Of a DNA stretch of 64,000 bases, positions 18,367-34,009 are shown piece after piece. Every line of letters starts with the position of its first letter. The stretch's first letter is position 1. The stretch is from NCBI GenBank assembly GCA_001312325.1, contig BBDJ01000020.1, forward strand, positions 21,407-85,406. Reading direction: 5' to 3'. The notes beneath the pieces are model-generated. The model had not been told where the DNA came from. It ran no database searches and was given only the letters and a program-made list of their open reading frames with translations. The DNA is from Lysinibacillus pakistanensis (GTDB lineage Bacteria > Bacillota > Bacilli > Bacillales_A > Planococcaceae). The position numbers and the translations under genes were made by a program.

Positions 18367-19535
18367 ATGAATGCATATTCGGAAACTGTTTTTAATGCCA
18401 AAACGAAGATTTATACAGGCGTATCTTCTATAAAAAAATTTGGGGCCTGTTCTACAAGAAATTGGTGCTCATCGTATTTTAATGGTCACAGATCAAGGAA
18501 TTAAGCACTCGGGTATTTTAAAGAATGTGCTTGGCGAAATACCTGAAAATATTGAAGTTTTGATTTATGACGAGGTAAAACCTAATCCAGATGTTGCAAG
18601 TATTGATGAAACTGCCAATAACTATAGGAAAAAAAGAGATTTCAGCTTTAGTAGCTGTAGGAGGAGGTAGTGTAATTGATAGTGCGAAGGCTTTAGCAAT
18701 TGTACTAACAAATGAGAGTTCTATTTCAGCCTATTATGGCTTCGATCAATATACTGAAAAAGCACTTCCGCTAATTGCTATTCCAACAACGGTTGGAACA
18801 GGGAGTGAAAGTGGAAATGCAGCAGTTATTACGGATGAGACAGATGGATTGAAAACGAAAAAAATTAGTTTTTGGAGAAGATTTATTCCCTAGAGTAGCG
18901 ATATTAGATGCAAGTTTATTACGTGCTATGCCAAGTGGTCTAATAGCCTCAACAGGATGGATGCTTTAACACATGCTATTGAGGGATACGTATCTATTTG
19001 GAGCTCACATTTTACCGATGCACTTAATCTACATGCAGTACGAGTGATTGGAAAATCATTATTACCTGCCATTGCCCATAGTGAAAATACAGAGGCAATG
19101 CATGGCATGTTATTGGCTAGTTCTATTACAGGCTTAGGAATGGCTAATTCAGGGTTAGGAATGGTACATGGGATATCGCACGCTATTGGCGCGCAATATG
19201 ATGCTCCACATGGTATTGTCAATGCTATTCTATTGCCTTATTTACTAGAATACAATTGGATTGCGAATCCTGAGAAATTTAAAGAAATTGCTGAAGCCTT
19301 ACGTGTCAATATTGAAGGACTTTCCGTAGAGGAGGCGGCCAAAGCAGCTGTAGCCTATGTGAAGAATTTAACGAAAGAAGCTGGTATCCCTGAAAAGCTG
19401 AGTGCTATTGGTATAAGCAAAGAGCATATCGATGTTTTAGTTGATATTGCCTTCCATGATGCTCAGTACATGGTGCCGAATCCACGCAAAATGTCTAGGC
19501 AGGACATCTATAATATTTTAGATCAATCAATTTAA
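18367..19535 (+). CDS. Iron-containing alcohol dehydrogenase (four frameshifts)
   Basis: About 388 residues of the group III (Fe-ADH) family. AVGGGSVIDSAKA is the NAD-binding signature, PTTVGTGSE follows, and the metal-binding His residues fall in MDALTHAIEGY and HGISHAIGAQYDAPHGIVNA. Frames break near 18425-18438 (one base extra), 18630-18637 (7 A), 18860-18866 (7 A), and near 18952 (one A missing in GGATGG). GGGAGG precedes ATG 18367, 15 bp after the M20 gene. Oxidises an alcohol or reduces an aldehyde; substrate unknown. Confidence 0.88.
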
Positions 19536-19550
19536 TAAGGAGGTCTATAG

Positions 19551-21046
19551 ATGCTAGAGATGAAATTACCACAAGCAATTGAATTATTACCTAAGGTGCA
19601 AGCTTTTTTAGAGGAAACAAAGGGATTATATATTAATGGAGAATTCATTCAATCAAAAGCCGGGAAAACCTTCGACACAATAAATCCTTCTACTGGAGAT
19701 AAAATAACGGATGTATATGAAGCACAAGCGGAGGATATAGATGCAGCAGTGGAAGCAGCCAGAGATGCTTTTGATCATGGATCATGGTCAAAGATGGATG
19801 CTGCTCAAAGAGCCTTATTGATGCTAAAACTAGCGGATTTAATGGAAGAGCATAAAATGGAAATCGCTCAAATTGATGCCTTGGATAATGGTAAGCCGAT
19901 TAATGAGGTTTTGGGAAATGATATTCCAAATGCTGTTGAGCAATTTAGATACTTTGCGGGCTGGGCAACCAAAAATATGGGACAAGTTCTGCCTGTAGCG
20001 GGTAATTTCCTAAATTATACAAGGCATGAGCCAGTAGGTGTAGTAGGGCAGATTATCCCTTGGAATTTTCCGTTTATGATGGTTTCTTGGAAAGTTGCCC
20101 CAGCATTAGCAACTGGATGTACTGTTGTTCTTAAGCCTGCGGAACAAACACCACTGTCTGCACTTTATTTTGCTCAATTAGTGAATGAGGCAGGCTTTCC
20201 GCCAGGTGTTATTAATATCGTACCTGGCTTTGGTCCAATTGCAGGAGAGGCGCTAGTGATACATGAGAAAGTCGATAAAATTGCATTTACTGGCTCTACA
20301 GATGTAGGAAAGGGCATAATGAAAAAAAGCAGCTGACACAATGAAACGCGTGACATTAGAGCTTGGAGGAAAGTCTCCTAATATTATTTTGCAGGATGCT
20401 GATTTAAGTACAGCAATTCCAGGTGTTCTTTCGGGTATAATGGCCAATCAAGGGGAAGTTTGTAGTGCGGGTTCAAGAGTATTTGTTCATCGTAGCCAAT
20501 CCGAGGAGATCATTAAACAAATGGTGAACTATGCTTCAAAAATTCAACAGGGTCATGCTTTAAATTTTGCCACACAAATGGGAGCACTTGTTTCAGAAAA
20601 ACAGCTAAATCGTGTTAAAAACTATATTGAAATAGGTGTCGAAGAGGGAGCAACATTAGCATGTGGTGGTAAATCGGCTAACAATGGCTATTTTATGGAG
20701 CCTACTATTTTTACAAATGTTTCTGATACGATGACAATTGCACAAGAAGAAATCTTTGGACCTGTTGTTGTTGTGCTAGAATATGATAGTTTGGATGAAT
20801 TAGTAGAAAGAGCAAATAAGTCGAATTTTGGGCTAGCAGCAGGCATTTGGACACAGAATTTAAAAAAACGCACATTCATTAGCTGCAAAATTAAATGCGG
20901 GTTCAGTATGGGTGAATTGCTATAATATGACAGACCCTGCTTCTCCATTTGGAGGATATAAGCAATCAGGCATCGGCAGGGAAATGGGCTCGTATGCTTT
21001 ACAAAATTACACGGAAGTGAAGAGTGTTTGGATTAATTTGGATTGA
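19551..21046 (+). CDS. NAD-dependent aldehyde dehydrogenase (two frameshifts)
   Basis: About 497 residues, BetB/GbsA-like classical [31 protein letters not shown], the catalytic Glu region [11 protein letters not shown] and the catalytic Cys in [11 protein letters not shown] are all visible, as is the C-terminal [15 protein letters not shown]. Frames break at the 7-A runs near 20323-20329 and 20863-20869 (one A too many each). AAGGAGG precedes the start. With the Fe-ADH it would take an alcohol to a carboxylate. It is not the CoA-acylating type; that enzyme lies in the BMC operon. Confidence 0.9.
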
Positions 21047-21180: not shown

Positions 21181-21259
21181 TTGACAATTATCTAACTATT
21201 CTATAAAATTCAAACAAATCCACATAAATACAGAATATGAATGTTGGTTTTGTGGATTT
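21181..21259 (+). promoter_or_regulatory. Promoter and putative DeoR operator of the microcompartment operon
   Basis: TTGACA (21181-21186), 17-bp spacer, TAAAAT (21204-21209). Just downstream, AAATCCACA (21216-21224) is repeated inverted as TGTGGATTT (21251-21259), flanking the predicted start of transcription. Since the first gene encodes a DeoR-family repressor, this is a plausible autoregulatory operator for the whole BMC operon. Confidence 0.6.
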
Positions 21260-21294
21260 CGTTGGATTCTACTATGTGTTTGGAGTGATTGTGT

Positions 21295-22089
21295 ATGTCC
21301 CTTTCGTTTGAGGAACGCAAAAAAAGTAATTTTAGATATATTAGATTTAGAAGGCAAAGTGAAGGTAAGTGATGCCGAACAACTATTAAACGTATCAGGT
21401 GAGACTATACGTAGAGATATGGACCGATTGGAGAAGGAAGGGCTCCTGCACAAAGTTTATGGAGGTGCCGTGAAAGCTAAAGAAAAGTATGAACGGACAT
21501 TTGAACAGAAAACTTCACTCAACAACTTAGAGAAAAGAATGATATGTAAGGCTGCAGCAAGTATTGTGGAGGATGGAGACGTTATTTTTATTGGTCATGG
21601 TACAACAGCCTATGAAATCGTTCGTTATTTAAGTGATAAACCAAATGTAATAGTGGTAACAAACTCTCTCCCGGTTCTCTCATTAGCAGCAGAATGCTTT
21701 CAAGGTAAAGTGCTTTTTGCAGGAGGTGAGTATGAGCATCGACAAAAATTTATGGGTGGTCCTTTAGCTGATTTGTTTTTTAATCAATTAAAGGCAAATA
21801 AAGCCTTCGTAGCTGCAGGCGGAATTTCATTAAATGAGGGCATTACAGATTATGATATTACTGGAGCTGCTATTTCAAAGAAATTAATAGAACGAGCTGA
21901 AAATACGATAATTTTAGCGGATCACACGAAATTTGGAGTCTCCACATTCGCACATATTTGTCACTTGGAAGATGTTGCTATGGTGATTACAGATCAAAAA
22001 AAGCTCTACGCAATGGCAAGAACGCTTGGCCCAAAAAAAAGGTTGAACTATTAATAGCAGGTGAAATTTTGGAGGATGTCAACGTATAG
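21295..22089 (+). CDS. DeoR family transcriptional regulator (two frameshifts)
   Basis: About 264 residues. N-terminal DeoR winged helix: VSDAEQLLNVSGETIRRDMD then LEKEGLLHKVYGGA. The sensor domain has the sugar-isomerase-like GHGTTAYEIVRYL, TNSLPVL, GG...AFVAAGGISLNEGITDYD and ADHTKFG. ATG 21295 encodes MSLSFEERKK once the 7-A run near 21319-21325 loses one A; the C-terminus ends at 22089 if the 8-A run near 22034-22041 gains one A. First gene of the BMC operon, 13 bp before the PLP enzyme; ligand probably a phosphorylated intermediate, as is common for DeoR proteins. Confidence 0.85.
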
Positions 22090-22102
22090 GAAGGTGGAAA
22101 AC

Positions 22103-23368
22103 ATGGATTATTTTGCGAATAAACAAGCAACCTTACAAAAATCAATTGACTGGTGGAACCCAGGGAAAACAAAACAATGGCAAGTAGATGGCGTTGATGT
22201 TGTCATCGGAAAAAGAGAAGGCTATTACTTTTATGATGTAGATGCAAAAAAATTAATGAATGCCCATTTAAATGGCGGAACCTATAATTTAGGCCATCGT
22301 AATCCAGAAGTTATCGCAGCATTAATTGAAGGAACAAATTATTTTGATATTGGTAACCATCATTTTCCTTCAACAGCTCGTGCCCAATTAGCTGAAAAAT
22401 TAGCAGCCTGTACACCAGATGGTTTAAAATATACGATTTTCTCAAGTGGTGGAAGTGAAGCGATTGATGTTGCCTTAAAATGCGCTCGCTATGCCACAAA
22501 ACGTAAAAAAACCATTTCGATTAAAAATGGCTATCATGGACATAGTGGTTTAGCCGTGTCATTAGGGAATGAACGTTATTCTAAGCCATTTTTAAGTGAA
22601 GGCGATCCAAGTGAATTTGTACATGTGCCGTTTAATGATTTACCAGCGATGGAACGAGAGCTGTCCAAAGGGGATGTGGCGAGTGTTATTATCGAAACAA
22701 TTCCGGCAACATATGGCTTCCCTTTACCGAATGCCAATTATTTATCAGGGGTGAAGGCATTGTGTGAGCGCTACGGAGCACTATACATTGCAGACGAAGT
22801 GCAAACTGGGTTAATGAGAACTGGGAAGCTATGGGGTATTGATCATTATGGTGTGAAGCCGGATATACTAGTGACTGCCAAAGGTTTAAGTGGAGGTATT
22901 TACCCAATTGCGGCTACCGTTGTGAATGAACGAGCTGGCGGTTGGATGGAAGAGGATGGACTAGCTCATATTTCTACTTTCGGTGGTGCTGAGCTTGGAT
23001 GTGTTGTTGCCATGAAGGTATTAGAAATTTCCCAACGACCAGAAGTAGTTAAAAATGTGGAATATGTCGCACGTTATTTACGTTCAGGCTTAGAGCGTAT
23101 CCAACAGCAATATCCGGATTTCTTTGTTGGCATTCGTCAATTAGGAGTGGTCATGGGGCTAGAGTTTAATCATCCTGAAGGGGCAAAGCATGTAATGAGC
23201 TCCCTGTACAAGCATGGAGTGTGGGCAATTTATTCAATGCTCGATACACGAGTTCTTCAATTTAAACCGGGCTTATTATGCGATAAAGCATACTGTGATG
23301 AGTTACTTGAAAAATGTGAAGCAGGTATTAAAGAGGCTGCACAGCTTGTAAAATTTGCACGTTATTGA
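22103..23368 (+). CDS. Class III PLP-dependent aminotransferase/phospho-lyase of the BMC operon
   Basis: 421 residues, intact. Fold-type I class III features: NLGHRNPEVIAAL, SSGGSEAIDVALKCAR (phosphate binding), IKNGYHGHSG, ADEVQTGLMRTGKLWG with the PLP-binding Asp, and the Schiff-base Lys in LVTAKGLSGG. Members of this group include amino-alcohol O-phosphate phospho-lyases (ethanolamine-phosphate phospho-lyase type) as well as omega-aminotransferases. The APH-fold kinase gene immediately downstream favours phospho-lyase: amino alcohol phosphate to aldehyde, ammonia and phosphate. ATG 22103 has AGGAAGGTGG upstream. Distinguishing lyase from transaminase needs assay or phylogeny. Confidence 0.85.
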   Translation: MDYFANKQATLQKSIDWWNPGKTKQWQVDGVDVVIGKREGYYFYDVDAKKLMNAHLNGGTYNLGHRNPEVIAALIEGTNYFDIGNHHFPSTARAQLAEKLAACTPDGLKYTIFSSGGSEAIDVALKCARYATKRKKTISIKNGYHGHSGLAVSLGNERYSKPFLSEGDPSEFVHVPFNDLPAMERELSKGDVASVIIETIPATYGFPLPNANYLSGVKALCERYGALYIADEVQTGLMRTGKLWGIDHYGVKPDILVTAKGLSGGIYPIAATVVNERAGGWMEEDGLAHISTFGGAELGCVVAMKVLEISQRPEVVKNVEYVARYLRSGLERIQQQYPDFFVGIRQLGVVMGLEFNHPEGAKHVMSSLYKHGVWAIYSMLDTRVLQFKPGLLCDKAYCDELLEKCEAGIKEAAQLVKFARY

Positions 23369-23411
23369 AGGTGTAGAAAGATTGGCGATTTGTAAACAAG
23401 GGGGTTTTCAA

Positions 23412-24416
23412 ATGGGACAAATGGATTTCTTAGATTTAGAAGCTGTACTATCTAATTTTCATCAAGCAGCGCATGATGCCTTGAAGGAATTCAGCTGTTT
23501 AGCAGGCGCATCTTGTAAAATGATTGACTATTCCGAAAACTCTACGTATTTAGTAGAGGATGGACAAGGTAAAAAGTATATTTTGAGAATTAGTCGACCA
23601 AATTACCATAAAAAAGAAGAGATAGAAGCGGAGATTGCTTGGCTAAACTCATTACACGAGCAATCTCCCATCGATGTATCATTACCAATTCGAGCAGATG
23701 ACGGTGACTACGTACATGCTCATAAATTAAATGACATCATCTATTATAGCACGTTATTTACATTTTTGGAGGGAAATGCACCGGATGAAAATAACGAAGA
23801 AGATCTAATTCAACAATTTGAAACATTAGGAACAATTACTGCGATGTTCCATAAACATACAATTGAGCAGCATGATTATTATAAAGACTTTAAACGAATG
23901 ACGTGGGATTATGACACGATTGTAGGAAACTCACCGAAATGGGCTAGGTGGCAGGATGGCCTTGGTATGACACCGTCACGTTTAGCTTTATATGAAGAAG
24001 CATCTCTTATTATTAAAAAGAAGTTAGAAGCCTTTGGTAAAAGTAAGACAAGATTTGGACTAATACACTCAGATCTACGTCTAGCCAATTTATTAACTTG
24101 TGGAGATGAAATAAAGGTTATCGATTTTGATGATTGTGGCTTTGGTTGGTTTTTATATGATTTAGCCACGTCAGTAAGCTTTATAGAGCATATGCCCTAC
24201 CTAGATGATTTAATTGCTTCTTGGTTAAAAGGCTATAGCAAAATAAGGATCTTAACGGATGAAGAAATTGAAATGATTCCAACTTTTATTTTAATGAGAA
24301 GACTACAGCTTATTTCTTGGATAGGTAGCCGCGATAATGAAACAACAAGATTACTAGGTGAAAACTATACAGTACAGAGTGATGTTTTAGTGAATGCATA
24401 TTTGGAAAAAAAGTAG
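23412..24416 (+). CDS. APH-fold kinase, probable amino-alcohol kinase
   Basis: 334 residues, intact. Aminoglycoside-phosphotransferase/choline-kinase fold: an N-lobe with YILRISRP, Brenner's motif HSDLRLANLL (catalytic Asp) and the metal-binding DFDDCGFGWFLYDLA. Enzymes of this family phosphorylate small hydroxyl substrates such as choline, ethanolamine, homoserine and 1-amino-2-propanol. Between the PLP enzyme and the permease it most plausibly makes the O-phosphate that the phospho-lyase uses. AAGGGGGT precedes ATG 23412. No encapsulation helix is seen, so phosphorylation may occur outside the shell. Confidence 0.82.
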   Translation: MGQMDFLDLEAVLSNFHQAAHDALKEFSCLAGASCKMIDYSENSTYLVEDGQGKKYILRISRPNYHKKEEIEAEIAWLNSLHEQSPIDVSLPIRADDGDYVHAHKLNDIIYYSTLFTFLEGNAPDENNEEDLIQQFETLGTITAMFHKHTIEQHDYYKDFKRMTWDYDTIVGNSPKWARWQDGLGMTPSRLALYEEASLIIKKKLEAFGKSKTRFGLIHSDLRLANLLTCGDEIKVIDFDDCGFGWFLYDLATSVSFIEHMPYLDDLIASWLKGYSKIRILTDEEIEMIPTFILMRRLQLISWIGSRDNETTRLLGENYTVQSDVLVNAYLEKK

Positions 24417-24457
24417 AGTGCTGTAACATCTAAATATGAGTAAAGGTGGCGAATGAT

Positions 24458-25863
24458 ATGTCTTCTAAAAAGGGTGAAATAATTGTATTAAAGAAAGCCT
24501 TACACCGATTCATTTATGGACAATTGGTGTTGGGATTGTTATTTCAGGAAATTATTTTGGTTGGAATTTTGGATTAAGTCAATCTGGCTACTTAGGGATG
24601 CTAATCGCTACACTCTTCATGGCTATTATGTATTTAACGATGACCTTAGGAATTTCAGAATTATCGACGATGTTACCGTATGCAGGTGGGCCTTACTCTT
24701 TTGCTAGACGTGCAATGGGAAGATATATTGGCTTTATTACAGGGATTGGAGTTGTTCTTCAATATGTGATTGCTGCACCGATTATTGCCATTGGTATAGG
24801 TGGCTATATAAGCTTTTTATTCCCATCCGTTCCGACAGTAGTAGCAGCAGCTTTCATGTATGCCCTCTTTATGGGTGTCCATATTATCGGTATAAAGGAA
24901 TATGCAACAATTGAAATGGTGCTTGTCTTTATAGCACTTGGATTATTAGTATTAATGTATTTTGTTGGATTACCACAAATTAATGTGGCTCATTTATTTC
25001 CTGAAAATGGTGATTTAATACCTGGTGGATTTAAAGGGGTTTGGTCTGCCTTGCCATATGCTATGTGGTTATTTTTAGCCATTGAAATGCTACCAATGCT
25101 ATCTGAGGAGACGAGAGATGTACAAAAGGACATGCCAAAGGCTTAATCTCCGGAATGATTACGTTATTAGTATTGTCCGTTTTAACGACAACTGTGGCAA
25201 TAGGTCTTGCTGGTATTGATGTTATGACTGTTGCGGAAGATCCGCTTCCAGCAGCAATTGCAGCAGCGTTTGGTAACACGTACTGGCTAGCTCAAATTTT
25301 AGCTTCTGTAGGATTAGTAGGATTAATTGCTAGTTTCTCAGGTGTTATCTTAGCTTATTCACGTCAAGTTTACGCATTATCTCGAGCAGGTTATTTACCA
25401 AGCATTTTAGCAAAGATGCATAAAAAGCGTCAGACACCTTATATGGCAATTATTTTACCAGGCTTTATCGGCTTAGCGCTTGTTATCTTATTCAATCCTG
25501 ATGACCTCATTTTAATTTCTACATTCGGGGCATTAGTGTCTTATATTACGATGAATTTATCAGTGTTGATTTTACGGAAAAAAAGAGCCAAATCTTGTTA
25601 GAACATTTAAAACACCATTATATCCATTTACACCAATTGTTTCTCTTGTGCTAGCAGTTATTGCTATCTTTGCAAGTTTCTTTGCCAATTTTACATTTTT
25701 CATCGTGTCGTTAGCTGTTTTTGCTGTTGCAAGTATTTATTATTGGATTTGGGCTCGTCATCAAATTAATGAGGATGCTCCAGAAGAACGCTTTGCTAAA
25801 GAAACGACTACTTCGCATGAAAGTCAGATTACTACAGCACCCATTGAAGCGATTAGAGAATAG
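24458..25863 (+). CDS. APC-superfamily permease, ethanolamine-permease-like (three frameshifts)
   Basis: About 468 residues, 12 predicted helices. The N-terminus LTPIHLWTIGVGIVISGNYF and ELSTMLPYAGGPYSFARRAMG resemble the EutP/EAT-type ethanolamine permeases of the APC superfamily. The frame breaks near 24503 (one A missing), near 25136 (one A missing in CCAAAGG) and at the 7-A run near 25577-25583 (one A extra). Likely imports the amino alcohol that feeds the compartment; substrate inferred from neighbours. Confidence 0.83.
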
Positions 25864-25884
25864 AGCAAAAGGATGTGTCCTCCA

Positions 25885-26631
25885 ATGAATCAAGTAGAAT
25901 GGATTATTTTTGATAAGGATGGAACCATTATTGAAATGGATTCCTTATGGATAGCATGGGCCACAAATTTTTACCTCAATTTAACTGAAAATTCGGATTT
26001 CGAAGTCGGTTTTACATTACAGGAGTTTTTAAAAAAAATATAGGTGTAAAAGACAATGGTCGCTCCATTGATCCAACAAGTCCATTAGCCATTGGAAGTA
26101 TACAAGAAGCAGAAACGATTGTTGCCTATTTACTTTATCAAGAAGGAATAGCATGGAGTAAGGGTGTGACAAAAGCGAGATCTGCAGCAAGTTTAGCTAC
26201 TACTCAGCAAGAGCATGTAACTGTAAAAGAACTACCAGGTATTCGACGGCTATTAATGGCTTTAAATAATAATGGGATAAAATTAGGCGTTATCACGGCT
26301 GATTTAACTGCTCGAGCGGAGAACCATCTTAAACAGCTAGGTATTCTAGAGCAATTTGAATTTGTTTTAGGAAGTGATCAAGCAGTTTATAGTAAGCCAT
26401 TTCCAGATTTAGCTTATGTAGCAAGGGAACGCTATCATGTGCCACTTGAACGGACAGTGATGATTGGTGATTCAAATGCTGACATGCTTTTTGCTAAAAA
26501 TGCTGGTATGCAATTTTCCATTGGCATTATCCCAAAAGAAGTTTATCCAAAAGACTATTTACCAGATGCTACAAAAATCATTGAATCCTATGATGAATCA
26601 TTAGTAGCTATGTTTGTAAAAAAAGGAGTGA
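25885..26631 (+). CDS. HAD-superfamily phosphatase of the BMC operon (two frameshifts)
   Basis: About 248 residues. Motif I is IIFDKDGTIIEMDSLW, motif II Thr lies in GVITADLT, motif III/IV is ..SKPFPDLAYVARE.. and MIGDSNADMLFAKNAG, a phosphoglycolate-phosphatase-like HAD. The frame breaks at the 8-A run near 26031-26038 (restored with 9 A) and at the 7-A run near 26618-26624. With that second repair the protein ends at TGA 26631, right over the ribosome site of the next gene; unrepaired it runs to 26651. Possibly relieves build-up of a phosphorylated intermediate. Confidence 0.78.
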
Positions 26632-26635
26632 TTAT

Positions 26636-26941
26636 ATGGACCATCAATTGATTGCAAAAATTACTGAGTTAGTAATGGAGAAAATTTCACAAACGTCTCA
26701 ATCGGATGGTGGCTATCAAGGTCTAACACAAGGCGAGCTACAGGAATGGCAGTCATTTCATCCGATGAATCCAAGCATGAGCATGTCTCAACAGCCTGTC
26801 GTTGCTGCCAGTGTTTACGAGGCTTTAACTGCGCAGGAGTTGCAAAATTGGGATAGCTTACATCAGCAGCAAGCATTTGTTGTCTCTAAATCAGCACCAT
26901 CCCAGACAGACGACTTAATCGCCATTAAAAAGTTTTCATGA
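26636..26941 (+). CDS. Uncharacterised two-repeat protein with encapsulation-like helix
   Basis: 101 residues, intact; I do not recognise a family. It begins with an amphipathic helix (MDHQLIAKITELVMEKIS, hydrophobic residues L, I, I, L, V, I spaced i, i+3/i+4) like BMC encapsulation peptides. It then holds two copies of a 16-residue motif: YQGLTQGELQEWQSFH (about 28-43) and YEALTAQELQNWDSLH (about 62-77), consensus Y-x-[GA]-L-T-x-x-E-L-Q-x-W-x-S-[FL]-H. A Met/Ser/Gln-rich linker joins them and a basic tail ends the protein. AAAGGAG precedes ATG 26636. It lies directly before the aldehyde dehydrogenase. A cargo-organising or scaffold role is a guess from position and shape. Confidence 0.75.
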   Translation: MDHQLIAKITELVMEKISQTSQSDGGYQGLTQGELQEWQSFHPMNPSMSMSQQPVVAASVYEALTAQELQNWDSLHQQQAFVVSKSAPSQTDDLIAIKKFS

Positions 26942-26956
26942 TGGGAGGATGGTCGA

Positions 26957-28446
26957 ATGATAAAGGATCAAGATTTACTATCGATTCAAGAAGCAAGAGA
27001 TGCTGTTATAACAGCATCTAGTGCCCAAAAAAAAGTTTTCTAGCTTTTCGCAAGACAGGTGGATCGAATTATAGAAGCAATCGCTCTGGCAGCCTTTGAG
27101 CAAGCAGAGAATTTGGCCATATTAGCTGTTACAGAAACGCAGATGGGTGTCATTGAGCATAAGAAAATAAAAAAATGAGCTCGCATCAAAAGGAGTTTAT
27201 GAATCGATACGCAATGAAAAAAAACAATCGGTATTATACAGGAGGATTCAGTAGCAAAGCAGATAGAAATTGCTTACCCATATGGGGTTATTGCAGCGGT
27301 ATCGCCTGTTACAAATCCAACTGCTACGGCGATTTATAAAACACTAATTGCCCTGAAGGCTCAAAATGCAATTGTCTTTAGTCCCCATCCAACAGCTGTC
27401 AACTGTACGATTGAGGCATTAAAAATATGTCAACAGGCAGCTGTTCGTGCAGGTGCTCCGGAGGGCTTGATTCAATGGATTGCCCATCCTACATTAAAGG
27501 GAACAGAGGCATTAATGCAACATAAAGATGTACAGTTAATTTTGGCGACTGGAGGATCAGGGCTAGTGAAGGCTGCCTATAGCTCAGGCAAACCTGCATA
27601 TGGTGTTGGACCTGGAAATGTCCCTGCGTATATAGATCGTACGGCAAATATAGCTCGGGCTGTTCAGCAAATTATGGATAGTAAGTCATTTGATAATTCT
27701 ACTATCTGCGCAACGGAGCAGGCGATTGTGGTCCATCAGGATGTAAAGGATCAAGTAATGATAGCCTTAGCCAACAATGGAGCTGTGCTACTAAAAGGAG
27801 CAGATAAGGAAAAATTAGCAAAGGTTATTTCTCCTATCCCGCGTACACTGAATAGCAAAATTGTTGGTAAACCAGCTACAGTCATCGCCAAAATGGCAAA
27901 TATTAATGTCCCTTCATCTACAAGAGTATTAGTGGCTGAGGAGCATCTAATTGGCAAGGAGTATCCATTCCATGGAAAGCTATCACCGATATTAGGAATT
28001 TATACTGCCAATTCTCATGAGGATGCAGTATCCATTTGTCAACAATTATTAGATGTTGGTGGTAGGGGGCATAGCTTAGCTATCCATGCTCAAGACGAGC
28101 GCTTTGTTAAAGAATTTGCTGCACAAATGCCAGTGTCTAGAATTTTAGTCAATACATTGGCGTCTGTTGGAGCTGCTGGTGGCACTACAAGCTTAATGCC
28201 TTCCTTTACCTTAGGCTGTGGTGCATACGGTGGAAATATTACAAGTGATAATATTTCAGCCCGTCACTTAATTAATAAAAAAACGAGTTGCTTATGGCAT
28301 CAAGGAACTTTCGATTCCGAAGCCACAACACCCGAAAAATATACAAGATACATCTCCTTCATTTCAAGTAAATGAAGAAGCACAATTAAATGCAACCATG
28401 ATTCAAAAAAATAGTTGAAGAAATCGTCACGAAATTAAGTGTCTAG
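26957..28446 (+). CDS. CoA-acylating aldehyde dehydrogenase, PduP/EutE type, with C-terminal encapsulation peptide
   Basis: About 495 residues after repair. AYPYGVIAAVSPVTNPTAT, LATGGSGLVKAAYSSGKPAY, GVGPGNVPAYID and the catalytic Cys in DNSTICATEQAIV match the BMC acylating aldehyde dehydrogenases that turn an aldehyde plus CoA and NAD+ into acyl-CoA and NADH. Frames break near 27029-27036 and 27056, 27168-27174 and 27211-27218, and twice near the end at 7-A runs about 28278-28284 and 28406-28412. The repaired C-terminus reads MIQKIVEEIVTKLSV, an amphipathic encapsulation-peptide-like helix; unrepaired, the protein would end at 28375 without it. Core cargo enzyme of the compartment. Confidence 0.88.
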
Positions 28447-28460
28447 AGGAGGAATTTTAA

Positions 28461-28742
28461 ATGAGTGTGGAAATTAATGGAGCATTAGGAATGATTGAAA
28501 CTAGAGGGTTAATTGGATCTATTGAAGCAGCAGATGCCATGGTGAAAGCTGCTAATGTTAATATTGTTGGTAAAGTGCATGTGGGTGGAGGCATTGTAAC
28601 AGTTTTAGTAACGGGAGATGTAGGAGCTGTTAAAGCTGCTACAGATGCAGGCTCTGAGGCTGCCCGTCGTGTGGGCGAATTATTATCTGTACATGTGATT
28701 CCACGTCCTCATTCAGAGCTATTAGCCATTTTACCGAAATAA
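28461..28742 (+). CDS. BMC-H shell protein 1
   Basis: 93 residues, single BMC domain (PduA/EutM type): [21 protein letters not shown], then [23 protein letters not shown]. The loop HVGGG should line the pore of the hexamer. The C-terminus [15 protein letters not shown] is the canonical BMC-H ending. Very close to the copy at 31119-31397. GAGGAGG precedes the start. Confidence 0.95.
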
Positions 28743-28759
28743 GAATTGGAGGTGTTTGA

Positions 28760-29374
28760 ATGACAAACCATCAAACGCTTGTGTCTAATTCTGTAGCTGG
28801 AGCAATCCCCATTGCAGTATCAGCTCGTCATTGCCATGTCAGTGAAGAGGATTTCTTTCATTTATTTGGCGCAAATGCTCAACTAAAGGTGTGGAAGGAG
28901 CTTTCACAGCCAGGCCAATTTGCTGCAGAGCAAGTTATTACTATTAAAGGTCCTAGAGGCCAAATTGACAAGGTTCGGGTATTAGGACCGTTCCGTCAGG
29001 ATACACAGATCGAAATCAGCCAAACAGATGCAATTAAACTAGGTGTTTCCCCACCTATTCGAATGTCAGGTGATTTAGAAAATTCTTCACCAATTACATT
29101 GATAGGGACACATGGTATATTGCATAAAGAGAACGGGCTAATTATTGCACAGGCCCACATTCATATGTCCGAAACAGAGGCAGCTTCATTTAATGTAGCG
29201 GATCAAGACATTGTGAAGGTAGAAATTACGAATGAGGTTCGCCAAATCCAAATTATGAATGTAGTTGTACGTGTGTCACCAAATTACAGGCTAGAGATGC
29301 ATATTGATACAGATGAGGCCAATGCAGCATCTATCACTACTAATCAAACCGGAAAGCTCATGAAAATGGGGTGA
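28760..29374 (+). CDS. pduL: PduL-type phosphate acyltransferase 1 (no encapsulation helix)
   Basis: 204 residues. PduL repeats with Zn ligands: IPIAVSARHCHVSE (HxH), QAHIHMSETEA and EMHIDTDEANA near the C-terminus; LSQPGQFAAEQVI and RVLGPFRQDTQIEIS are family blocks. It converts acyl-CoA plus phosphate to acyl phosphate and recycles CoA inside the shell. The N-terminus (MTNHQTLVSNSVAGA) shows no clear amphipathic targeting helix, unlike the second PduL at 31410. The stop overlaps the next reading frame. Confidence 0.93.
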   Translation: MTNHQTLVSNSVAGAIPIAVSARHCHVSEEDFFHLFGANAQLKVWKELSQPGQFAAEQVITIKGPRGQIDKVRVLGPFRQDTQIEISQTDAIKLGVSPPIRMSGDLENSSPITLIGTHGILHKENGLIIAQAHIHMSETEAASFNVADQDIVKVEITNEVRQIQIMNVVVRVSPNYRLEMHIDTDEANAASITTNQTGKLMKMG

Positions 29375-29379
29375 TACAA

Positions 29380-29988
29380 ATGGATATGCAAGCGTTACAA
29401 CGACTTATTCAAGAAGTAGTCTCTACCATTGTGAACACAAATAAAAGAGTATTGATTGTTCATCCCCAGACAACAATCTCAAATAGGCAGGTTGAAACAT
29501 TAAAAAGCTATTTTCAAGTAGAGGAGTGGCAAGCGGATACCCCATCCCAAATGTTTCATGACGCAACAGTTTTTCTCGAAGTTGATCAGTCTTTCATTGT
29601 CAGCAGTGCACAAGGATTGCCCCATTCCCCTGCATCCTTGTTCCTGACTGAATTACTTCTGAAAGATGAGCCAGCTATTTTAGTCCCCAATGAAAAAAAT
29701 GTCTGTCGTTTTTACTACGAAAGAACCAAATGCTTACATGAAAATGCTTCTACAGCATATGAAAAGCTTACAGGAATTCGGCTGTGAGTTTCAATTATTC
29801 TCACAGCTAATTCCTTCTATCAAGGATAAGGAAAATCTCAATCATTACGATATCCAAGCAGATTTTATTACAGAGGAAATGATTAGGTCGTACAAAGGGC
29901 AGCAGCTGAAACTTCCATTTCATACAAAGATCACACCACTTGCCTTGATCTGATTCATGAGAAAGGCATTCGTATTCTAAGAAACTAG
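29380..29988 (+). CDS. BMC-associated protein of unknown function, eut_hyp-like (two frameshifts)
   Basis: About 202 residues. It opens with an amphipathic helix MQALQRLIQEVVSTIV resembling encapsulation peptides, then a Rossmann-like stretch (RVLIVHPQ ... ATVFLEVDQSFI ... AILVPNEKMSVVF). The C-terminus DFITEEMIRSYKGQQLKLP then HTKITPLALDLIHEKGIRI resembles a module found in several Eut/BMC accessory proteins and, strikingly, in the C-terminal extension of the second PduL here. The frame breaks at the 7-A run near 29693-29699 and near 29945-29952 (one base missing). Similar to Firmicute Eut-operon proteins of unknown role; no catalytic motif identified. Confidence 0.65.
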
Positions 29989-30003
29989 CAGGAGTGTTGT
30001 TAC

Positions 30004-30330
30004 ATGACAAAATCGATTGGTATTGTGGAAACGAGAGGTCTTGCCATTTCTATTCAAATCGCAGACGCCATGTTAAAAGGAGCAGCTATTAGATTGCTTC
30101 GACAAGAAACAATTGATTTAGCACTTGTAACAATTGCTATTGAAGGTGATACGGAGGCAATTCGGGAAGCAATTGAAATTGGTACGAAAATGGCCAAAGC
30201 TGCTAACCAATGGATTGCCTCTACTACTATTTTACGCCCTGAAGATGCTGTTAACGGTTTAGTGATGGAAATTGCTAAAAAAACCAACGTAATCACACAA
30301 TCATTTGAAAAGGTGGGAGATGGAATTTGA
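30004..30330 (+). CDS. BMC-H shell protein 2 (divergent)
   Basis: 108 residues with one BMC domain: KSIGIVETRGLAISIQIADAM ... ALVTIAIEGDTEAIREAIEIG. The pore loop differs from the other copies (RQETIDLALV in place of KVHVGGGIV) and the C-terminus lacks the [11 protein letters not shown] ending. It may give a hexamer with a different pore, for larger or charged solutes. The stop overlaps the SDR start by 4 bp. Confidence 0.88.
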   Translation: MTKSIGIVETRGLAISIQIADAMLKGAAIRLLRQETIDLALVTIAIEGDTEAIREAIEIGTKMAKAANQWIASTTILRPEDAVNGLVMEIAKKTNVITQSFEKVGDGI

Positions 30331-31097
30331 AAGTAGATTTATCTGGTAAGGTTGTTATTGTTACTGGCGGAAGTAAAGGAATTGGTAAAGGCATTGCGAC
30401 CGTATTTGCTAAGCAGGGTGCTCATGTCGTTATCGCTGCAAGAGGCTTAGAGCATGCAACAAAATTAGCAACTGAGCTACAAATGCAGGGCTACTCTGCT
30501 TCTGGGGCAGCCGTTGATGTAGAAAGCTATGAATCTGTGAAAAACATGGCACAAGAGGTTGCTAGTAAATATGGGGCCATTGATATTTTATGCTCAAATG
30601 CTGGTATTTTTCCATCTGTCAAGCTAGAGGATATGAGCACAGACCAATGGGACCATGTGTTGAATGTTAACGCGAGAGGAACAATGTTTGCTGTGAAAGC
30701 ATGTGTTCCTTATTTAAAGAATGCGGATTATGGAAGAGTCATTATTACTTCCTCCATTACAGGACCAGTGACAGGATATGCAGGGTGGACACACTATGCA
30801 GCAAGTAAAGCAGCACAGCTTGGTTTTATGCGGACTGCAGCACTTGAATTAGCACACTATAATATTACCGTTAATGCAGTTCTTCCAGGCAATATTGCAA
30901 CAGAAGGCTTAGATGGTCTTGGAGAGGAATATTTGCAGAAGATGGCAAAGGCAATTCCATTCGGTGGATTGGGCAGTGTTGAGGATATTGCCTATGCAGC
31001 ACTATTCCTCAGCAGCAAGGAAGCAGGTTTTATTACAGGACAATCCATTATTATTGATGGTGGACAAACATTACCAGAAGATGCTGAAGCATTTTAA
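30327..31097 (+). CDS. Short-chain dehydrogenase 3 of the BMC operon
   Basis: 256 residues, intact. TGGSKGIGKG binds the cofactor; SNAGIFP, catalytic Ser in ITSSITGPVTGYAGW and the pair HYAASKAA (Tyr-Lys) follow; the C-terminus is GQSIIIDGGQTL. SDRs in actinobacterial RMM compartments oxidise 1-amino-2-propanol, which makes an amino-alcohol dehydrogenase a reasonable hypothesis here. It starts inside the stop of the previous shell gene (ATG/TGA-type overlap region), so the genes are coupled. Confidence 0.88.
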   Translation: MKVDLSGKVVIVTGGSKGIGKGIATVFAKQGAHVVIAARGLEHATKLATELQMQGYSASGAAVDVESYESVKNMAQEVASKYGAIDILCSNAGIFPSVKLEDMSTDQWDHVLNVNARGTMFAVKACVPYLKNADYGRVIITSSITGPVTGYAGWTHYAASKAAQLGFMRTAALELAHYNITVNAVLPGNIATEGLDGLGEEYLQKMAKAIPFGGLGSVEDIAYAALFLSSKEAGFITGQSIIIDGGQTLPEDAEAF

Positions 31098-31118
31098 AAA
31101 CGTAGGGGGAATTGAAGG

Positions 31119-31397
31119 ATGAATAATTTTGGTGCATTAGGAATGATTGAAACAAAAGGGCTAGTCGGCTCCATTGAGGCGGCTGATGCAATGGTAAAGG
31201 CTGCAAATGTCAATATCATTGGTAAGGTACATGTGGGTGGGGGAATTGTCACAGTCCTTGTACGTGGAGATGTAGGAGCAGTAAAAGCAGCAACTGATGC
31301 AGGAGCAGCAGCTGCACAGCGAGTAGGAGAACTGCTGTCTGTTCATGTGATTCCACGCCCACATGCAGAGTTAGAAGCGATTTTACCGTTGACTTAG
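31119..31397 (+). CDS. BMC-H shell protein 3
   Basis: 92 residues, near twin of the protein at 28461: [67 protein letters not shown]. Main differences are R for T before GDVG and an Ala-rich GAAAAQR in place of GSEAARR. Two almost identical BMC-H proteins probably co-assemble in the facets. Confidence 0.95.
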
Positions 31398-31409
31398 AAA
31401 TGAGGTGGA

Positions 31410-32272
31410 ATGATGAATCAACAAGCAATAGAGCAAATTGTGAATGAGGTCATTGCTGAATTACTGCATACAAAGCAGGAAGCGCCTATTACACAATACG
31501 ACATTCCCATCGGTATTTCAGCGAGACATATTCATTTGAAACAGGAGCATGTAGAGCATCTCTTTGGTAAGGGAGAGCAATTAACAGCAAAAAAAGATGC
31601 TGTCCCAACCAGGGCAGTTCGCAGCTAATGAAACATTAATGGTTGTTGGTCCAAAGGGCAGTATTTCAAATGTCCGTGTTTTAGGCCCTGCTCGTTCCTT
31701 AACACAGGTTGAAGTTAGCCATACAGATGCTATTGCATTAGGCATTCAGCCACCAATAAGAGAATCTGGCAATATTGCAGGATCAGCAAGCTGCACGTTA
31801 GTTGGCCCGAAAGGTAGTTTATATTTACATGAGGGAGTTATTATTGCCCAGGCACACATCCATATGTCACCAGAGGAAGCAAGTGAGTTAACCGTTTTTG
31901 ATGGAGAGTATGTGTCAATAAAAACGCAAGGTATCCGACCTGTGACATTTCATCATGTGAAAGTACGAGTTTCAGAGCGCTATCGTTTAGAGATGCATAT
32001 TGATACTGATGAAGCAAATGCTGGCTTCCTAAAATCTGGAGCAACAGGTACTTTAGTAAAAGAAAATAAGGAAGAGCTTACGTATAATTCCTCCCAAAAA
32101 AACTACTATTGTGCAGGCAAATGAAATTAATGAAAGAATAATAACTGAAAAGGATTTATTAGCCATTCAGGGACAAACAATTATCGTTCCTCGATTTACT
32201 AGATTCACTGCACTCGCAATGGATGCGGTGGTAACTTTAGGGATTACTATAGAGTATAAAGATGAAGGATGA
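31410..32272 (+). CDS. pduL: PduL-type phosphate acyltransferase 2 with encapsulation helix and C-terminal module (two frameshifts)
   Basis: About 286 residues. The N-terminal helix QAIEQIVNEVIAELLH is encapsulation-peptide-like; the catalytic PduL domain has IPIGISARHIHLK, QAHIHMSPEEA and EMHIDTDEANAG. After it comes a ~75-residue extension not found in PduL 1, ending IITEKDLLAIQGQTIIVP then RFTALAMDAVVTLGITIEY, which parallels the C-terminus of the protein at 29380. Frames break at the 7-A runs near 31590-31596 and 32096-32102 (one A too many each). Long for the family (about 210 residues). Confidence 0.88.
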
Positions 32273-32278
32273 TGATAC

Positions 32279-32548
32279 ATGCGTATAGGTACAGTCGTAG
32301 GAAATATTTGGGCAACACGTAAAGAAGAAGGGCTTCAGGGATTGAAATTGCTCATTATTCAACCTAAAAAAACAGATGGACAACTTGGTGATGAGCAAAT
32401 CGTTGCGGCAGATCGAATTGGCGCGGGTGTTGGTGATGATGTGATTTTAACGATGGGCAGTGCAGCTGTTCGAAGCTTTTCAAAAGAAACAATTTGTCCA
32501 ATTGATGCCATTATTGTAGGCATAATTGATGCAACAGAGGGATCGTGA
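32279..32548 (+). CDS. eutN: BMC-P vertex protein, EutN/CcmL family
   Basis: 89 residues: MRIGTVVGNIWATRKEEGLQGLKLLII, GAGVGDDVILTMGSAAVR and PIDAIIVGIID are the EutN/CcmL signature. Pentamers of this protein cap the shell vertices. It is the only BMC-P in the operon. Confidence 0.93.
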   Translation: MRIGTVVGNIWATRKEEGLQGLKLLIIQPKKTDGQLGDEQIVAADRIGAGVGDDVILTMGSAAVRSFSKETICPIDAIIVGIIDATEGS

Positions 32549-32558
32549 GGTGAAAGCA

Positions 32559-32948
32559 ATGAAAGAAGCGATTGGTATGATTGAAACATATGGTATGGTC
32601 GGCTCTATTGAGGCAGCAGACGCTATGCTAAAGGCCTCGAATGTCCAATTAGTCAAACATGAATTAATAGATGGTGGGATTGTAACTGTTATTGTTGAGG
32701 GGGATGTTGGAGCTGTGCAGGCAGCTGTTGAAGCAGGAAAAGCAGCGGTTGCTCGCGTTGGCACATTGTTAAGTGCACATGTAATTCCAAGGGCAGCAGA
32801 CGATGTTTTTACAACAATCATTGATCATCCCCAAGCAAAACCAAAAGTAGAAAAAAACGTGGAAAGAGTACCGAAAACATCCTCCCGTAGTAAAGCTCAA
32901 GTAAAAGAAACTGCCCAAAATTCTTCTACAGATGTTCAAAGTGAATAA
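32559..32948 (+). CDS. BMC-H shell protein 4 with basic/polar C-terminal tail
   Basis: 129 residues: a BMC domain ([62 protein letters not shown]) and a 40-residue Lys/Ser/Gln-rich tail (KPKVEKNVERVPKTSSRSKAQ...). The pore loop (HELIDGGIV) differs from copies 1 and 3. ATG 32559 follows GAGGTGA; an in-frame ATG at 32526 is inside the EutN gene. Tails like this can bind cargo or cytosolic partners. Confidence 0.92.
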   Translation: MKEAIGMIETYGMVGSIEAADAMLKASNVQLVKHELIDGGIVTVIVEGDVGAVQAAVEAGKAAVARVGTLLSAHVIPRAADDVFTTIIDHPQAKPKVEKNVERVPKTSSRSKAQVKETAQNSSTDVQSE

Positions 32949-33042
32949 TCAATTTCGCCTTGGCGTAATTGAAGCTGCCGCTTCGCTTTCGCACAGTAAA
33001 GAATTGCTGAATGAAGATAAAATGATCTCTGTATCTATATGA
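32932..33042 (+). CDS. Short overlapping ORF or displaced tail
   Basis: 36 codons from ATG 32932, overlapping the end of the previous shell gene in another frame: begins MFKVNNQFRLGVIEAAASLS and ends DKMISVSI. The middle (RLGVIEAAASLSHSKELL) is helical and amphipathic. It could be a small peptide, the true tail of the shell protein after a frameshift, or chance. No ribosome site is evident, so I rank it low. Confidence 0.25.
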   Translation: MFKVNNQFRLGVIEAAASLSHSKELLNEDKMISVSI

Positions 33043-33070
33043 CAATGTATCACTATGAGGAGTGAAGATA

Positions 33071-34009
33071 ATGGGATTTAAAAGGCCAAAGATCGCCATT
33101 ATTGGTGCTGGTCATACAGGTGCCACTGTAGCTTTAATGGTTGCTCAAAAAGAAATCGGAGATATCGTTCTAGTCGATATTCCAGATTTAGAAAAACCAG
33201 CTAAGGGGAAGGCGCTAGATATTTTACAAACAGGCCCAATAGAAAAATTTAATGTGCATATTGCAGGTACAGCACAATATGAGGAAATTGCCCATGCTGA
33301 TATTGTTGTCATAACAGCAGGTATTGCTAGAAAACCTGGAATGACTCGAGAGGATTTGATCACAACAAATGCCTCGATTATTCGTTCTGTTAGCGAAAAT
33401 GTAAAGCGCTTTGCCCCAAACAGCTATGTCATTGTGCTGAGTAACCCTGTCGATGCTATGACCTATGTTTGTCTAGAAACTACAGGCTTCTCCAAAAATC
33501 GTGTTATGGGGCAATCAGGCATTTTAGATACAGCTCGCTTTAATACATTTATTGCAGAGGCACTGCAGCTAGCAGCAGAGGACGTGTCGAGCTTTGTTTT
33601 GGGAGGGCATGGAGATGAGATGGTGCCACTTGTGCGCTATACGTATGTCGGTGGAATCCCGCTCGAGAAAATGCTTCCAAAAGCACAAATCCAACAATTA
33701 GTGGAACGGACACGGAAAGGTGGCGGCGAAATTGTGGAGCTTCTTGGCAATGGTAGTGCCTATTACGCGCCAGCAGCATCAATTGTCCAAATGATAGAAG
33801 CCATCATCAAGGATAAACGAAAAGTTATACCCGTTATCGCTTATTTACAGGGGGAATACCATGTAACCGATGCTTGTATTGGTGTACCAGTTATTCTTGG
33901 TGGGAATGGAATAGAAAGTGTTATTGAATTACACTTGAACGAAGAAGAACATCAGGCATTTAGCAAGTCTGTTCAGGCTGTCAATTGTACGTTAAATTAT
34001 ATTAAATAA
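33071..34009 (+). CDS. Malate dehydrogenase (lactate/malate dehydrogenase family) in the BMC operon
   Basis: 312 residues, intact and of typical Bacillus Mdh length. [14 protein letters not shown] is the NAD fold. The substrate loop [15 protein letters not shown] carries the two Arg residues of malate rather than lactate enzymes, and the catalytic His lies in [14 protein letters not shown] 33071 sits 8 bases after GAGGAG. Last gene of the BMC operon. A housekeeping mdh is expected elsewhere, so this extra copy may serve NAD+ regeneration for the aldehyde dehydrogenase; that is inference. Confidence 0.88.

Follow-up and report, generated by a model that had tools for sequence, protein, structure and literature searches.

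A candidate vitamin B12-free amino-alcohol metabolosome in Lysinibacillus pakistanensis joins a putative front module to an ethanolamine-type chassis

Which pathway does a bacterial microcompartment (BMC) serve when its operon encodes shell proteins and an acylating aldehyde dehydrogenase and no EutBC, PduCDE or glycyl-radical enzyme? This question is raised by an operon of Lysinibacillus pakistanensis at positions ~21290–34009 of a 64,000-nucleotide stretch of contig BBDJ01000020.1 (the whole stretch is hereafter the window), which we confirmed using Pfam on the window open reading frames (ORFs) together with intact orthologues. The best explanation, and one that we consider probable, is a B12-free metabolosome for 1-amino-2-propanol/aminoacetone. 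The operon matches the Pfam families DeoR, Aminotran_3, APH, AA_permease, HAD, Aldedh, two PTAC (PduL), four PF00936 BMC-H, one EutN, SDR and Ldh_1, in agreement with a sequence-only reading of this DNA, which had listed four BMC-H, one EutN, an acylating aldehyde dehydrogenase and two PduL proteins in one operon. That reading had also found the aldehyde-generating signature enzymes missing, and the eutBC (the ammonia-lyase signature of ethanolamine utilization, EUT), pduCDE and glycyl-radical families indeed match none of the 20 operon ORFs in Pfam. BMC-H and BMC-P shell genes lie with the acylating aldehyde dehydrogenase in one locus, the gene combination by which a metabolosome is recognized. 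The operon includes no BMC-T gene, and all four of its BMC-domain shell genes encode single-domain BMC-H proteins. Several window genes are frameshifted, and intact orthologues, including those of the reference genome G001, were used in their place.

The front module carries the evidence for the substrate. All genes are on the forward strand, and the first encodes a DeoR-family regulator (21290–22054; PF00455 4e-46, PF08220 2e-14; 96% identical to its G001 counterpart) with an approximate start and indels near both ends. The operon had been thought to start with a kinase and a pyridoxal phosphate (PLP) enzyme; the pair is present, and the order is DeoR, PLP enzyme, APH, which makes the kinase third. 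The class III PLP enzyme (22061–23368; PF00202 2e-76) is a candidate amino-alcohol-phosphate phospho-lyase that keeps the PLP lysine motif. An arginine binds the acceptor carboxylate in class III aminotransferases, and at this position the window enzyme has Gln400, with glutamine also in 120/120 homologues among the matches listed (of 7705); the residue is arginine in the ArgD paralogue of G001. A 52% identical relative in Pseudomonas adjoins an APH kinase and a 58% identical relative in Phyllobacterium adjoins an alkaline-phosphatase-family protein, without an adjacent kinase; both neighborhoods fit a phosphorylated substrate for the PLP enzyme. The arginine-to-glutamine change and the neighborhoods thus support the assignment as a candidate phospho-lyase, short of proof. 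The APH-fold kinase (23355–24416; PF01636 1e-26), a candidate 1-amino-2-propanol/amino-alcohol kinase, has chain 6ef6 as its best PDB match (E 4e-68), with amicoumacin kinases far behind (1e-15). The short-chain dehydrogenase/reductase (SDR) (30327–31097), a candidate 1-amino-2-propanol dehydrogenase/aminoacetone reductase, has 3rih, 6ci9, 6ci8 and 3pk0 as its four best PDB chains (E 8e-86 to 4e-81), and the next match (2.4e-51) lies ~30 orders behind. Chain 6ef6 is presumably the aminopropanol kinase and 6ci8/6ci9 presumably the aminopropanol dehydrogenase of Mycobacterium smegmatis; the codes are absent from the MCPdb text checked. Mallette and Kimber in 2018 reportedly proposed a kinase plus phospho-lyase and described structures of these two M. 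smegmatis enzymes. The module is completed by an APC permease (24445–25863, start approximate; PF00324/PF13520) and a HAD hydrolase (25873–26651; PF13419), both frameshifted in the window. The sequence-only reading had named an ethanolamine-type permease and an SDR as fitting parts; both are present, and the G001 permease passes the TIGR00908 ethanolamine permease model (444.6 vs. a cut-off of 381.75 bits).

From gene content, homology, trees and co-occurrence we infer substrates, reactions and encapsulation as follows. The permease would import the amino alcohol, or the SDR would make 1-amino-2-propanol from aminoacetone and NAD(P)H, after which the APH kinase would use ATP to form the phosphate ester and the PLP enzyme would convert the ester to propionaldehyde, ammonia and phosphate (acetaldehyde if the substrate were ethanolamine). 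Inside the BMC-H and EutN shell, the aldehyde dehydrogenase would use NAD and CoA to produce propionyl-CoA and NADH, PduL would exchange CoA for phosphate to give propionyl-phosphate, and a step of the acetate-kinase type outside the compartment would yield propionate and ATP, so that the net sum would be aminoacetone plus water to propionate plus ammonia. The malate dehydrogenase homologue would probably reoxidize NADH, and it may do so if the SDR uses NADP(H); an LDH/MDH-type dehydrogenase is discussed in an NADH-reoxidizing role for PVM and MIC1 loci in the text available of Axen 2014. Two ideas of the sequence-only reading, that an amino-alcohol kinase and a PLP phospho-lyase work in a B12-free compartment and that the aminoacetone compartment of the Rhodococcus and Mycobacterium microcompartment (RMM, also AAUM) type is the nearest design, are supported by the kinase and SDR homology, the arginine-to-glutamine change and the neighborhoods, and we retain both as predictions.

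The rest of the operon is assembled from parts that recur in the B12-dependent eut locus of G001 (L028; G001:C1:1913001-1932000), and by gene content and order the operon as a whole is a putative amino-alcohol front module joined to an EUT-type chassis. The chassis comprises the acylating aldehyde dehydrogenase (26957–28446; frameshifted in the window) with a C-terminal helix resembling an encapsulation peptide (EP), BMC-H1 (28461–28742; PF00936 5e-28), PduL1 (28760–29374; PF06130 2.5e-71), the divergent BMC-H2 (30004–30330; PF00936 5.5e-18), BMC-H3 (31119–31397; PF00936 1e-27), PduL2 (31410–32269; frameshifted in the window) with an EP-like N-terminus and a C-terminal extension, in which PF06130 matches in two pieces and whose L017 orthologue also matches PF06130, a EutN-type BMC-P (32279–32548; PF03319 1.5e-28), BMC-H4 with a C-terminal tail (32526–32948; PF00936 2.6e-27) and the malate/lactate dehydrogenase homologue, a candidate NADH recycler (33062–34009; PF00056/PF02866). 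Aldehyde dehydrogenase, BMC-H, PduL, long PduL, EutN, BMC-H and malate dehydrogenase genes follow each other in the same relative order in both loci, with identities of 54% for the aldehyde dehydrogenase, 71% for the malate dehydrogenase, 50–54% for the PduLs, 60% for EutN and 57–92% for BMC-H1/3/4; BMC-H2 is only 32% identical to EutM. Unlike L028, the window operon has the 204-aa gene described below, BMC-H2, the SDR and BMC-H3 between its two PduLs, and it lacks EutABC, EutL, EutS, EutP and the two-component regulator, in place of which it has the kinase, PLP enzyme, permease, HAD hydrolase and a 101-aa protein. The two PduLs and the malate dehydrogenase had been taken as marks of a new design, a view that cannot stand because L028 has both too, its PduLs in tandem; no gene of L028 is labelled as an iron-type alcohol dehydrogenase. 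Against TIGR02518 the G001 aldehyde dehydrogenase scores 595.8 bits, just under the cut-off of 620.1, and the G001 malate dehydrogenase homologue passes TIGR01763 (448.5 vs. 351.85 bits). In the aldehyde dehydrogenase tree, nine enzymes from loci of the window type (Aut, see below) and one EUT enzyme (Bacillus piscicola) form a group supported at 96/96 among the EUT aldehyde dehydrogenases; the Aut rows alone are weakly supported (58/89), and the RMM enzyme is remote.

The RMM locus of Rhodococcus jostii (L078, on pRHL2) resembles the window operon in having an APH kinase (35% identical), a class III PLP enzyme, an acylating aldehyde dehydrogenase, BMC-H and EutN. It differs in having a GntR rather than a DeoR regulator, two 187–201-aa BMC-domain proteins (BMC-T by length) and no annotated PduL, compared with four single-domain BMC-H and two PduL in the window, and a PLP enzyme that is only 24% identical to that of the window, falls in another clade, has lysine at the transaminase arginine position and shares a C-terminal tail with its aldehyde dehydrogenase. 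In a maximum-likelihood tree of the PLP enzymes, for which 6/37 aligned rows were dropped (four belonging to another protein and two remote paralogues), the window type (22 rows, support 100/99) is separate from R. jostii, Agrobacterium and Moraxella (100/100), and an approximately unbiased (AU) test rejects a single clade of window-type and R. jostii enzymes (p-AU 0.00025), with the tested group defined once the tree was known, long branches present and R. jostii as the one RMM enzyme compared. We therefore reject orthology of the two PLP enzymes. Because the PLP clade is separate and the RMM aldehyde dehydrogenase is remote, the predicted Bacillales design cannot be read as an extended RMM: the two have the idea of a kinase and an SDR in common, and the Bacillales one uses another PLP subfamily and a chassis of the ethanolamine type. 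An RMM hypothetical protein resembles the ~204-aa protein of the window (29371–29985; 18% identity) in its EP-like N-terminus and TPLA-type C-terminus. The window protein, one of two that the sequence-only reading had missed, is encoded by a gene frameshifted in the window, has no Pfam/NCBIfam match and carries an EP-like N-terminal helix and a C-terminal TPLA-type stretch like the PduL2 C-terminus; its AlphaFold2 model (pLDDT 82.5) suggests a flavoprotein-like fold, UbiX-like in Foldseek (E 2e-4, TM only ~0.4). In the text available, Axen 2014 defines RMM and suggests amino-alcohol degradation for RMM2, and Sutter 2021 places RMM1/RMM2 in its BMC-Tdp tree and lists 68 locus types. Within L078 we also observed a duplicated block of BMC-H, EutN, hypothetical and BMC-domain genes with the same protein accessions, and a PLP enzyme and aldehyde dehydrogenase with identical C-terminal peptides, a pattern resembling gene conversion.

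Several observations weigh against 1-amino-2-propanol/aminoacetone as the substrate. Loss of the arginine alone cannot establish phospho-lyase activity. The permease reaches the score of an ethanolamine permease, and acetaldehyde dehydrogenase is the enzyme to which the aldehyde dehydrogenase comes nearest. The IAAR motif of the SDR suggests NADP(H), so that the enzyme may not pair with an NAD-linked aldehyde dehydrogenase. Frameshifts affect the gene copies of the window itself, and no SDR was found near the module in 4/24 Bacillota loci (L054, L057, L058, L060). L054 has its PLP and APH genes within a eutABC operon, and PF00936 has no match in that genome, an arrangement that would fit an ethanolamine substrate or shell-free use. 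The same machinery could thus have ethanolamine as its main substrate, providing a B12-free bypass via ethanolamine-phosphate to acetaldehyde, and this alternative, favored by the permease score, the EutE-like aldehyde dehydrogenase and the position of the module within or next to eut operons (L054, L050, L051), gained weight because of the four loci without the SDR. However, 20/24 Bacillota loci have, in or beside the module, an SDR with 59% or higher identity to that of the window, eutB is present in 15/19 genomes tested and would make the bypass redundant, and the nearest solved kinase is 6ef6, presumably the aminopropanol kinase; we consider ethanolamine unlikely, with some weight left to it, and continue to favor 1-amino-2-propanol/aminoacetone.

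The front module occurs with chassis of varying completeness. It lacks shell genes in the stretch examined in Neobacillus, Cohnella and others (L022, L026, L052, L055, L058), and in four of these five loci the permease differs (25–27% identity). In L050 and L051 the module lies beside a eut operon (visible whole for L050 together with L119, and in part for L051) with only one extra BMC-H and the 101-aa protein, and all partial-chassis loci (L020, L024, L050, L051) are in genomes with eutB. The loci of L. antri and B. piscicola have no aldehyde dehydrogenase or EutN in the stretch examined, and eutB and a complete eut locus are found elsewhere in these genomes. Because eutB is present in 5/5 Lysinibacillus genomes tested, the absence of eutBC from the operon need not extend to the host organism. 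Full-chassis loci are also found in three genomes in which no eutB was found, G223, G431 (Psychrobacillus) and G433 (B. canaveralius), with three, two and two PF00936 matches genome-wide, respectively. With eutB not found and so few PF00936 matches, the predicted module must supply the shell itself in these genomes if the assemblies, for which there is no completeness figure in G431 and G433 and 8% contamination in G223, are complete.

The sequence-only reading had supposed a Bacillales version to be undescribed, which proved wrong: the text available of Ravcheev 2019 (PMC6620236) reports an Aut compartment in Firmicutes, naming Brevibacillus agri and Lysinibacillus fusiformis, and the PLP enzyme of Brevibacillus agri (P0075) falls in the window clade, clustering with the shell-bearing locus L057. 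A wholly new system is rejected, the Aut cluster having been published for Firmicutes. Like the Aut compartment, the window operon combines a permease, class III PLP enzyme, SDR, aldehyde dehydrogenase, APH kinase and shell genes, so that AutA, AutB, AutC, AutD and AutP lie with a shell in one cluster, and by this gene content it is probably the same locus type as the Firmicutes branch of Aut. The two descriptions differ in that Ravcheev 2019 gives Firmicutes at least two autD copies and a monophyletic AutA, whereas we find one APH gene per Bacillota locus checked and the AU test rejects the joint clade; PduL pairs, a malate dehydrogenase and a small protein are not mentioned for the Firmicutes Aut cluster in the text available of that paper. 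The published proposal, which the class III fold of the PLP enzyme favors, is transamination to lactaldehyde by a PLP aminotransferase, followed by lactyl-CoA formation by the aldehyde dehydrogenase and phospholactate formation by the kinase (Ravcheev 2019). It conflicts with the glutamine at the acceptor-binding position and with the PduL genes, which render a CoA-linked kinase step unnecessary. APH-fold kinases moreover phosphorylate hydroxyls, not acyl-CoA, and we regard this pathway as very improbable for the window operon. The kind of locus is thus known. New detail within the literature searched is the chassis of EUT type, a PLP enzyme that is not orthologous to that of R. jostii, the plug-in variants and a candidate adaptor.

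This candidate adaptor is the 101-aa protein (26636–26941), the second gene missed by the sequence-only reading. It consists of an N-terminal amphipathic EP-like helix resembling the EutC N-terminus, two motifs around LTxxE(L/I)xxW and an aromatic C-terminal tail, and M1, D2, L5, T10, V13, L30, E34, W38, L64 and W72 are invariant among 12 aligned sequences (alignment A1). AlphaFold2 predicts helices at 3–22, 32–40 and 66–83 and no compact fold (pLDDT 60, pTM 0.22). Judged by eye, the kinase, PLP enzyme and SDR have no obvious terminal extension, and the aldehyde dehydrogenase C-terminus, PduL2, the 204-aa protein and the 101-aa protein bear EP-like helices. We therefore propose that the 101-aa protein is a cargo adaptor that probably carries the front-module enzymes into the core.

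The distribution of the protein is consistent with this role. A profile seeded by the G001 protein and homologues, some of which coincide with or closely copy those of the Lysinibacillus loci scanned, matches in 17/17 shell-linked Bacillales loci (E 3e-51 to 3e-4 for this set of ORFs; L019 and L030 are apparently one locus), in none of ten shell-free PLP loci (L022, L025, L026, L035, L036, L052, L054, L055, L058, L060) and not in L078, the RMM locus. Apart from these, that round on loci gave a single match, to a EutC N-terminus (E 0.004); iteration 2 was seeded by EutC sequences and drifted, and only iterations 0 and 1 were used. Among 398 genomes of the class, 12 encode the PLP enzyme (E ≤ 1e-100) and eight have a strong 101-aa match (E ≤ 1e-15), these eight being the genomes with shell-linked loci and not the four with shell-free ones (G056, G161, G192, G361). 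Four of the eight (G001, G092, G151, G223) contributed rows to the profile, which leaves only four independent finds and does not affect the absence from the other 390 genomes; alignment A1 includes G001, G008, G092, G151, G223, L017, L020, L021 and L024, whose genome-scan matches exist by construction. A genus scan found the protein in 7/32 genomes, the same seven that carry the PLP enzyme. Twelve further genomes of the class gave weak matches (E 1e-7 to 0.005), of which ten have the EutC ARIG motif behind the helix, L111 has an EutC-type GRAG motif and L115 has neither; the EutC N-termini at these loci are without the LTxxExxxW motif. G161 and G192 have eut shells elsewhere in the genome, yet their amino-alcohol locus is shell-free and they have no 101-aa protein. 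On the tree, the co-occurrence of protein and shell amounts to at most three independent changes (two contrasts on supported branches, three in all), so that the statistics are thin.

More tentatively, as a suggestion that we would not yet back, the protein may be a dedicated adaptor made of a freed EutC-like EP, a disordered linker and two tryptophan motifs binding the PLP enzyme or kinase, which together with one or two BMC-H genes would be a plug-in that turns a B12-dependent EUT compartment B12-free. To our knowledge, this is the first adaptor proposed for a metabolosome. Alternatively, the protein may act as a scaffold of the entire core or as a partner of BMC-H. No description of such a small metabolosome protein was found in the open-access literature searched, with few queries near the topic and supplements excluded. 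In the parts of the two papers available, a study of GRM2 says that specific additional adaptor proteins are absent from metabolosomes (PMC6971018), and a paper on EP condensation describes EPs as fused to cargo.

In the window, the permease, HAD, aldehyde dehydrogenase, 204-aa and second PduL genes are broken, and indels lie near the ends of DeoR, APH and BMC-H2. A 24.4-kb alignment of the window (17645–42070) with G001 contains 80 indels, of which 55 lie close to a homopolymer four or more bases long, with insertions of 1–2 bases at 27/36 A6 runs and 6/11 T6 runs; the 72 frameshifting indels comprise 22 in operon genes, 6 in two upstream genes and 44 outside the 19 tracked genes. The G001 operon is unbroken, its PLP and APH proteins being 100% identical to those of the window over the aligned length, and other Lysinibacillus loci are also intact. 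The PLP enzymes of L. capsici, L. boronitolerans and L. macroides are 94% identical to that of the window. Because the indels cluster at homopolymers, many of them beyond the operon, and the G001 operon is intact, the window frameshifts are most likely an assembly error. Real pseudogenization of an operon decaying in this strain, as the five broken genes might suggest, is rejected as scarcely credible given this distribution and the intact loci. A plasmid origin is rejected as well, the best plasmid matches covering 2% of the operon.

Two genes directly upstream of the operon (18367–21043), one for an iron-type alcohol dehydrogenase and one for an aldehyde dehydrogenase, carry frameshifts in the window and are likewise present in G001; in G005 an aldehyde dehydrogenase is also upstream, where the sequence examined stops, and neither gene of the pair matched in L017. 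Between BMC-H4 and the malate dehydrogenase gene, G001 has a repeat-like ORF (L027:15269-15523) of four near-identical 12-residue units; its window counterpart (32932–33039) is shorter, a similar stretch occurs in the eut locus (L028:9245-9361), and Tandem Repeats Finder reported no tandem array at window positions 32900–33100.

Two other compartment loci were seen in the genomes surveyed. In Bacillus piscicola (L123; G434, C1:258001-270000), PhnW (2-aminoethylphosphonate transaminase; 588 bits, cut-off 401) and PhnX (phosphonoacetaldehyde hydrolase; 373 bits, cut-off 220) have as neighbors two BMC-H, a PduL and an acetylating aldehyde dehydrogenase that scores above its cut-off, and from gene content the locus is likely a phosphonate-fed acetaldehyde compartment; no description of a PhnX compartment was found in the open-access titles and abstract openings searched. 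L125 (G192:C4:3726001-3738000) contains BMC-H and EutN (by similarity), a UbiD-family decarboxylase, an allantoinase/hydantoinase-type amidohydrolase and, by eye, a UbiX-like protein.

Genes for CoA and NAD recycling are not obviously present in RMM according to the text available of Axen 2014. The Bacillales version has candidate recycling parts, PduL and the malate dehydrogenase homologue, and no BMC-T gene, which makes the recycling question testable. The predicted design suggests that one shell chassis serves two signature pathways, and the entry of enzymes without an EP into a metabolosome may be explained by the 101-aa protein, a small candidate that can be tested.

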